Both the position numbers and the translations under genes were made by a program. This document shows positions 8,466-10,547 of a stretch of DNA of 47,118 bases, in pieces. The stretch is from an uncultured Zetaproteobacteria bacterium (GTDB lineage Bacteria; Pseudomonadota; Zetaproteobacteria; Mariprofundales; Mariprofundaceae): contig CAMZLG010000032.1 in the NCBI GenBank assembly GCA_947311495.1, forward strand, positions 1 to 47,118, given 5' to 3'. Numbering within the stretch: position 1 is the first letter of the stretch; every line of letters begins with the position of its first letter. The notes beneath the pieces were generated by a model. The model worked only from the letters and a program-made list of their open reading frames with translations. It did not search any database and was not told where the DNA came from.

Positions 8466-8747
8466 TCAGCGTTTTGCAGCTGCTTTATATACCGCATTGC
8501 GTTCACGTTTACCCACAGCAACCACAAGCACCGCCACTTCTTGATCCAATACTTGATACACTAGGCGAAACCCAGATTGCCGTAGTTTAATTTTGTAACG
8601 GTGTTTTGAGCCATACAACTGTGATGCAGCAATCTTTGGATTGTCTAATCGTTGCTCTAACTTTTTCTTAAATTGTTTTTGAATCGTGTTATCCAATGCC
8701 TGCCATTCTTTGAGCGCATCACGCACAAAAACAAGCTTATAAGTCAT
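8466..8747 (-). CDS. RelE/StbE-type toxin of a toxin-antitoxin pair
   Basis: A 93-residue basic protein of the RelE/ParE superfamily, close to the StbE/RelE subgroup: KLVFVRDALKEWQALD, IQKQFKKKLEQRL, KHRYKIKLRQSGFRLVYQV and AVGKRERNAVY. Relatives are ribosome-dependent mRNA endonucleases; the C-terminal Arg/Lys/Tyr cluster fits that. The ATG at 8747 lies within the antitoxin's last codons (11-base overlap), so the antitoxin is made first and coupled. A TTG one codon upstream is less likely. Activity and target are inferred from the family only. Confidence 0.88.
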   Translation of the reverse strand: MTYKLVFVRDALKEWQALDNTIQKQFKKKLEQRLDNPKIAASQLYGSKHRYKIKLRQSGFRLVYQVLDQEVAVLVVAVGKRERNAVYKAAAKR

Positions 8748-8985
8748 CAATATCGACTTCGATACGCGCTTGATTCATACGCTGATTGGCTAAAGCATGA
8801 AGTTCCAAGTCTTCCAACTTATCCATCAATGCTTCATAAGCTTCCGCAGGCACACAATAAAAAGCAGGGGTATTGCGATTCAACACGGCAATAGGAAAAC
8901 CTTCACCTTGTGCAACCACTTGCATTGGATTCTTCTTTAAATCTGAAACACTAACCACTGTATCTGATAATACTGTTGCAACCAT
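8737..8985 (-). CDS. StbD/Phd-type antitoxin
   Basis: An 82-residue acidic antitoxin. The N-terminus (VSVSDLKKNPMQVVAQGEGFPIAVLNRNTPAFYCVP) is the Phd/YefM-type DNA-binding domain of StbD/RelB antitoxins, and the C-terminal stretch (EALMDKLEDLEL to DIDDL) is the acidic toxin-wrapping tail. The ATG at 8985 has GAGG at 8992-8995 six bases before it; an ATG at 8997 overlaps that ribosome binding site and is rejected. Its promoter overlaps repeated AGACC/GGTCT half-sites, as expected for autoregulation by the antitoxin. Confidence 0.88.
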   Translation of the reverse strand: MVATVLSDTVVSVSDLKKNPMQVVAQGEGFPIAVLNRNTPAFYCVPAEAYEALMDKLEDLELHALANQRMNQARIEVDIDDL

Positions 8986-8997
8986 ATTACACCTCAT

Positions 8998-9095: not shown

Positions 9096-9136
9096 GAAAA
9101 AAAACACCCTAATTAGGACAATGCTAATAGGGTGTC
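9096..9136 (-). terminator. Rho-independent terminator after the lipoprotein gene
   Basis: On the minus strand an 8-bp stem (ACACCCTA/TAGGGTGT at 9128-9135 and 9104-9111) is followed by a run of eight T. It lies 21 bases after the lipoprotein stop and separates it from the toxin-antitoxin pair. Confidence 0.88.
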
Positions 9137-9156
9137 TTTTATATTAATAACATCAG

Positions 9157-9534
9157 TTATTTTTCTAAACGAACTAAGTCACCTTTAATAGTGATACAAT
9201 TACTTCTATAACCTAGAAACCCAAAGTCTGTTTCTGTGATTAACACATTAACCAACATATCACCATCCGTTCCAGAATCTTGTCCACTCCGAATTGCACT
9301 ATCCATCGCAATCTGCTGTCGGTTCTCTGAGTCGCCAAATGGGATACCAATAAATGACTTACTACAAGATTCTCCTTCTGTGCGAACAGATGTATTATTC
9401 GCAACATTATAATCAAGGTTTCTAACATTGTGTGTTGAAGCTGCGGTAAAGTGACCTAAACTTGCAGTTGACGAACACGCAACCATCATCAAACATGATG
9501 CTGCAATCGTTATTTGTACTGTTTTCGCAATCAT
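9157..9534 (-). CDS. Small predicted lipoprotein of unknown function (TRL-like)
   Basis: A 125-residue protein with a lipoprotein signal: Lys4, a hydrophobic stretch, then MVAC with the modified Cys at position 20 and Ser at +2, which would send it to the outer membrane. The mature part contains GESCSKSFIGIPFGDSENRQQIAMDSAI and LGYRSNCITIKGD, a pattern that recalls TRL-like lipoproteins (Cys, small-loop LGI, repeated Ala/Ile helix, terminal Cys-T/I-I-K-G); this is a weak resemblance. GGGAG lies five bases before the ATG. Its promoter carries an 11-base homopolymer between the -35 and -10, so expression may be phase variable. The function is unknown. Confidence 0.8.
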   Translation of the reverse strand: MIAKTVQITIAASCLMMVACSSTASLGHFTAASTHNVRNLDYNVANNTSVRTEGESCSKSFIGIPFGDSENRQQIAMDSAIRSGQDSGTDGDMLVNVLITETDFGFLGYRSNCITIKGDLVRLEK

Positions 9535-9565
9535 GAATACTCCCTTTTTCCAAACTGACTGTAAG

Positions 9566-9592
9566 AGTATAAATGGGGGGGGGGGCTGTCAA
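9566..9592 (-). promoter_or_regulatory. Promoter with poly-C(11) spacer before the lipoprotein gene
   Basis: On the minus strand a perfect -35 TTGACA (9592-9587) is followed by G, eleven C (9585-9575), ATT and a -10 TATACT (9571-9566). The spacer is 15 bases, two short of the optimum, and 11 of them are one homopolymer. Slipped-strand change of the tract would change the spacer length and so promoter strength, as known for Neisseria porA and opc. The -35 starts four bases after the thrB stop. Confidence 0.75.
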
Positions 9593-9596
9593 GAAG

Positions 9597-10547
9597 TCAT
9601 TCTGTAAACTTATGGGAGAGTAACTTCCTGCGGTATTCCTCAGGGTCTTTGGTTTGTGTCATTGCGCCACCTCTGGGGTACAAAGCATCAAACAAACGCG
9701 ACACCCAAAAACGCAATGCGCCCAAGCGAAGCAAACCATTCAGCGCATCTTTCTCATTTGTTTCTAATTGACGTTTGCTTTCATAACCTTGAAGAAAAGC
9801 ATCCATGCGTTTGTCATCCTCATCACCCAACACAATGGCTTGGGCATTGATGGCAATAGCAATATCCATAGCATAAGCAGCATCGTGGGCATAATAAAAA
9901 TCAATCACACCCGACACGTCATCTCCCTCAAACAAGATGTTATCCACGAATAAATCACCATGAATCACGCCTGTTGGTAAACCTGAAACAGTTTGCTGCT
10001 TTTGATAAGCCAGCTCATCATTCAGCAAAGCAAGCGCATCTGCACCATACGTCTTTTTCACATCGGCTTGCATGGCAGTGATGGTATCTTCCAACCAAGC
10101 AAAACCTGTAGGATTATTTCGATGCTCATCAAAAGCTTGTCCTGCAAGGTGCAGGCTCGCCAAAGCTGCACCCGATGATTCCAACTGAGCGGCATTAAGA
10201 AAGTCTAAGGTTTCGCCTGTTAAACAAGACACTATACAACCCTGCTTCACTTCATCCCCAGTTTGGATGTCAAAAATCAATGAGTCATCTTTGCGCACTT
10301 GGACATCAGGGCTCTTTAAACCATTGCTCGCCAAATGTTTCATCAAACGCATGAAGTACGGCAGTTCATCAGCCCCCAATCGCTCAAAAATGGTCAACAC
10401 AAACCGTTCACCACTTTGCATATCCAAAAAGAAATTGCTGTTTTCGATGCCTGCGGCAATGCCTGTGAATGATTTGAGTTTACCAAGATTATAATCGGCA
10501 AGAATGGCTTCAAAATCTTGTGTTGTGAGTTCTGTATAAACGGACAT
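9597..10547 (-). CDS. thrB: Homoserine kinase, APH-fold type (ThrB)
   Basis: Phosphorylates homoserine on the way to threonine. The 316-residue protein belongs to the aminoglycoside-phosphotransferase/choline-kinase fold, not the GHMP fold of E. coli ThrB. Support: start SVYTELTTQDFEAILADYNLG, GIAAGIENSNFFLDMQSGERFVLTIFER, catalytic loop VIHGDLFVDNILFEG, metal-binding GVIDFYYA and the C-terminal LRFWVSRLFD, all typical of this ThrB form in proteobacteria. It ends the long trp-lpt cluster; no terminator is seen after it, and the lipoprotein promoter begins at once. Confidence 0.92.
   Translation of the reverse strand: MSVYTELTTQDFEAILADYNLGKLKSFTGIAAGIENSNFFLDMQSGERFVLTIFERLGADELPYFMRLMKHLASNGLKSPDVQVRKDDSLIFDIQTGDEVKQGCIVSCLTGETLDFLNAAQLESSGAALASLHLAGQAFDEHRNNPTGFAWLEDTITAMQADVKKTYGADALALLNDELAYQKQQTVSGLPTGVIHGDLFVDNILFEGDDVSGVIDFYYAHDAAYAMDIAIAINAQAIVLGDEDDKRMDAFLQGYESKRQLETNEKDALNGLLRLGALRFWVSRLFDALYPRGGAMTQTKDPEEYRRKLLSHKFTE

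Follow-up and report, generated by a model that had tools for sequence, protein, structure and literature searches.

Phase variation at promoters is known mainly from host-associated bacteria, and its usual explanation is immune evasion. In the porA promoter of Neisseria meningitidis a poly-G tract lies between the -35 and -10 elements and its length sets their spacing. The fim promoters of Bordetella lack a usual -35 and carry, upstream of the -10, a phase-variable C-stretch, together with an activator site; in Mycoplasma hyorhinis several lipoprotein genes (vlp) each have a homopolymer tract, of poly-A, in their promoter. For the opc (opcA) promoter of N. meningitidis, PMC3447861, which cites Sarkari 1994, gives 11 C as the low and 12 C as the high expression state.

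The window, i.e. the whole stretch of 47,118 nucleotides analysed here, from an uncultured Zetaproteobacteria bacterium, carries a putative promoter that resembles those of opc and porA by its anatomy. As in this type of promoter, a homopolymer of at least 8 nt separates the -35 and -10 hexamers, and the gene downstream encodes a predicted envelope protein, judging from its lipobox. The features are, from upstream to downstream:

9597..10547, minus strand: thrB (homoserine kinase), co-directional and directly upstream (NCBIfam PRK05231/TIGR00938, above cut-off)
9587..9592, minus strand: putative -35 element TTGACA, 6/6 to consensus; TTGAC is also found upstream of the ortholog in genome G003
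9575..9585, minus strand: poly-C tract C11 in the -35/-10 spacer, the proposed slippage site
9566..9571, minus strand: putative -10 element TATACT, 5/6 to consensus
9540..9546, minus strand: ribosome binding site AAGGGAG, 5 nt 5' of the ATG
9157..9534, minus strand: predicted lipoprotein gene, 125 aa, lipobox MMVACSS, ATG at 9534-9532
9098..9140, minus strand: intrinsic terminator of the lipoprotein gene, a long stem then T8 (fold -17.4 kcal/mol, z -4.6)

Re-reading the minus strand confirmed the arrangement described in the initial annotation, TTGACA-G-C11-ATT-TATACT with a 15-nt spacer (single G at 9586) before a lipoprotein gene, and both the good ribosome binding site and the lipobox were found again. 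Position and elements thus stand; only the strand needs stating, the gene running on the minus strand from 9534 to 9157, with its ATG 31 nt from TATACT. The tract had also been described as unique in the window for its size: indeed there is no other homopolymer of at least 10, the next longest being A9. Pattern searches over the assembly, a draft of 1.85 Mb in 162 contigs, further gave no C or G run of 11 other than this one.

With opc this promoter shares a poly-C tract before a surface protein gene, and with porA a homopolymer placed within the -35/-10 spacer. Because anatomy, position and target type match these two, the mechanism would be one already known. The differences lie elsewhere. 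The porA run is of G on the coding strand, whereas here the runs are of C and G-runs are rare in the genus; opc serves a single outer-membrane protein of a human pathogen, whereas here the targets are several lipoproteins, outer-membrane and secreted proteins of an iron oxidiser, with a putative effect on expression. The fim promoters have in common with the window a C-stretch in the promoter of a surface structure, but the window promoter has a good -35. The vlp tracts are poly-A and belong to one gene family of a host-associated bacterium, while those described below precede unrelated genes in unlinked places. As far as the open-access literature tells, what is new is the lineage, the spread over many genes and the recurring -10 context; among the titles and abstracts listed there, we found no report of phase variation or homopolymer systems of such kind in Zetaproteobacteria.

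We consider it likely that the C11 promoter of the window is phase-variable by slippage and a member of a set of poly-C promoters that serve surface genes across the genus. C11 would make the spacer of a sigma-70-type promoter hypermutable: Cs gained or lost by slipped-strand mispairing at replication would bring TTGACA and TATACT, at present 15 nt apart, closer together or further apart, and this change of spacing would move the transcription of the lipoprotein gene between low and high. This supposes that the elements form a real promoter, that spacing sets its output and that tract lengths vary within one population, all of which we infer from the DNA. With about five such promoters in the genome, the make-up of the cell surface would vary randomly from cell to cell.

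For the protein itself, Pfam gave nothing up to E 10, its NCBIfam matches fall far under cut-off, no relatives appeared among plasmids, phages or viral contigs, and its AlphaFold model has a mean pLDDT of 28.8. Its lipobox, MMVACSS, suggests a surface-exposed protein. A toxin-antitoxin pair of Phd/YefM-ParE type adjoins the gene (window 8466-8997); on the minus strand, 9034-9006 reads as a promoter-like TTGAAA-17-TATAAT. On the other side, the stop codon of thrB lies 4 nt upstream of TTGACA, and a terminator scan between thrB and the lipoprotein gene found none, so that read-through from thrB could bypass the switch. This proximity also favors another possibility: the promoter would be real but constitutively weak, transcription being largely thrB read-through and the tract a tolerated accident under no selection for switching. 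The spacer agrees with it, since 15 nt is suboptimal for sigma-70 promoters, whose optimum is 17 nt. Both the orthologous locus and the recurrence of the architecture argue against this possibility, which we regard as quite unlikely.

Within the class, a single order of which 78 genomes were covered, the lipoprotein is present in three genomes, all of the host genus. This genus of the Mariprofundaceae is probably Ghiorsea, given vent and subseafloor origins that agree with PMC10734525. The ortholog of G003 is complete (85% protein identity), that of G001 is partial, and there are no others in the class. Upstream of the G003 gene we observe TTGAC, then C11, 43 nt before the ATG instead of 40 nt in the window. 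Outside TTGAC-C11 the intergenic DNA of the two genomes does not align, which indicates that the tract outlived its flanks. In G003, moreover, about 190 bp separate the end of thrB from the tract downstream: the C11 is thus kept in place despite diverged flanks and a distant thrB, which hardly suits a tolerated accident behind a read-through transcript. With the best -10 of the G003 promoter, the spacer measures 18, vs 15 in the window. On the other hand both known full copies of this promoter have C11.

The recurrence of the architecture is clear at the level of the genus. Its 16 genomes contain 18 distinct sites with the pattern TTGA N0-6 C8 N0-12 TANNNT, vs 0 for the reversed pattern. The absence of control matches, together with the position of the sites before surface genes, also argues against a merely weak promoter. 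It bears as well on the quality of the sequence: assembly readily goes wrong at homopolymers, and this draft genome has 162 contigs, so C11 might be an assembly artefact, or a chance run; but the tract stands at the orthologous place in the assembly of another species, G003, and 18 sites vs 0 leave such an origin very improbable. Replacing the C-run by a G-run leaves only 2 distinct sites in the genus. Outside the class, TTGA-C8-TANNNT gave 30 matches vs 21 reversed in 221 Pseudomonadota genomes, with no clear excess, which rules out the excess as a general feature of the phylum.

Pattern searches in the own genome gave ten tracts of at least C8, five of them promoter-like and placed before lipoprotein or secreted genes. 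Over the genus, 15 of the 62 examined tracts of C9 or more are promoter-like, judged on DNA alone; that every long C-run would be a promoter is rejected, the rest lying in genes, hairpin loops or intergenic DNA. The gene following a promoter-like tract has a signal, a lipobox or a membrane segment in 13 cases out of 15, and a lipobox in 9 out of 15, compared with 16 of 211 ORFs for the background frequency of lipoboxes by the same crude predictor. Nearly all targets of poly-C promoters in the genus are lipoprotein, outer-membrane or secreted genes. The initial annotation considered a single locus; its description of this locus holds, but the evidence extends it to a set of surface-gene promoters across the genus.

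Homopolymers were also met in other situations. On contig C91 of the own genome, a C10 (8587-8596) lies within the ORF of a TrkH-like transporter and might be a frameshift switch. In G008 and G012, C17 and C19 form the loop of a common hairpin, GGCCTGTCAATT...AATTGGCAGG, with a length varying by species. In the congener G009, at three loci, poly-G runs of 10-11 occupy the Shine-Dalgarno position of genes for membrane or secreted proteins, 2-5 nt ahead of the start codon, and possibly act as translational switches.

In many members of the set, GCAAHTANNNTGCC spans the -10. In the family, TTGAC N4-30 GCAAHTANNNTGCC has a C-run of at least 6 in 14 of its 15 matches. In the 78 genomes of the class, C5 N0-3 GCAAHTANNNTGCC is found at 21 distinct sites, vs 0 reversed; though C5 sufficed, the runs were mostly of 8 (8 sites), 9 (6) or 10 (4). 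Such an association could also mean that co-regulated envelope genes use a class of promoters in which the poly-C spacer has a fixed structural or regulatory role, acting by DNA shape or as an activator binding site that realigns the polymerase, and that the drift of its length is incidental. The window promoter, however, is devoid of the GCAAHTA context.

The distribution of spacers speaks partly for such a fixed part. Among 27 promoters of the genus, the predicted spacers are of 12 (1), 13 (1), 14 (3), 15 (10), 16 (4), 17 (0), 18 (3), 19 (4) and 22 nt (1): they pile up at 15 and none is at 17. Moreover one family of secreted proteins keeps a 19-nt spacer in four species despite runs of C8 to C10. 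At the opposite, spacers ranging from 12 to 22 and a C-run starting 0 to 8 nt from the -35 hardly evoke a rigid element. If on/off states were random around the usual optimum, 17 should be among them, and its absence would not obviously follow from switching; either the assembled alleles are mostly in the low state, or a spacer made of a G:C tract obeys another rule. Poly-C promoters of other lineages also favor 15-16, among the matches listed.

Two parallels outside the genus can be mentioned beside these. Mucispirillum genomes repeat TTGACATT-C9-RTGA-TATAATG, at nine loci among the matches listed; most precede lipoprotein, signal-bearing or membrane genes, and likely form a parallel poly-C set in a gut bacterium. 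In another genus, G095 and G096 have TTGACCCGAY, then G9 or G10, then TATAGT, a promoter-like site whose poly-G spacer differs in length between the two congeners.

Among the loci covered, every pair of C-tracts having similar flanks was compared; six pairs turned out to be promoters of the class:

G006, two copies: C9/C5, 60-nt flanks identical
G005/G014: C9/C8
own genome (C45)/G011: C9/C8
own genome (C62)/G011: C9/C8 plus 4 more bases
G071/G069: C9/C8
G008/G014: C8/C9 by substitution, spacer length constant

The length of the C-run differs in all six pairs and that of the spacer in five. In the alignment of C62 with G011, over 2327 bp and 191 mismatches, the tract is the sole indel. Long-read assembly can shorten homopolymers. 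The quality figures of G006 resemble those of the long-read vent MAG of PMC10734525; G006 could thus be such a MAG and its C5 an assembly error. The pair G008/G014, which keeps its total length, adds to the arguments for a fixed part, but a run that changes in six close pairs out of six speaks against it, and we hold this explanation to be unlikely.

Length differences between near-identical promoters are the comparative signature of slippage, as read from assembled copies, and because of it a phase-variable promoter appears as the best reading. Since the architecture recurs before surface genes and near-identical copies differ in length, the window promoter is probably one of several random on/off switches. 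The initial claim of phase variation is therefore partly supported: the tract in the spacer, the lipoprotein target and the analogy with porA and opc are strengthened by the G003 ortholog and by the recurrence in the genus, and the expected length differences are observed between close members of the set; the only full ortholog of the window promoter has diverged flanks and also C11.

The wider proposal is that a free-living, marine, chemolithoautotrophic iron oxidiser has phase-variable surface genes all over its genome, driven by one stereotyped poly-C module, TTGACT-N-C8-10-(A)GCAAHTANNNTGCC or a close variant of it, that stands before many unrelated envelope genes, and this outside any host immune selection; we give it an even chance. 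Escape from phages or grazers, put forward as the selective force, is speculation. If the proposal is true, it raises the question of other selective forces behind random surface variation, such as phage, grazers, mineral encrustation or life in mats. A multi-gene set of marine iron-oxidising Zetaproteobacteria would place this question in a group with cultured members, where existing metagenome reads could address it.
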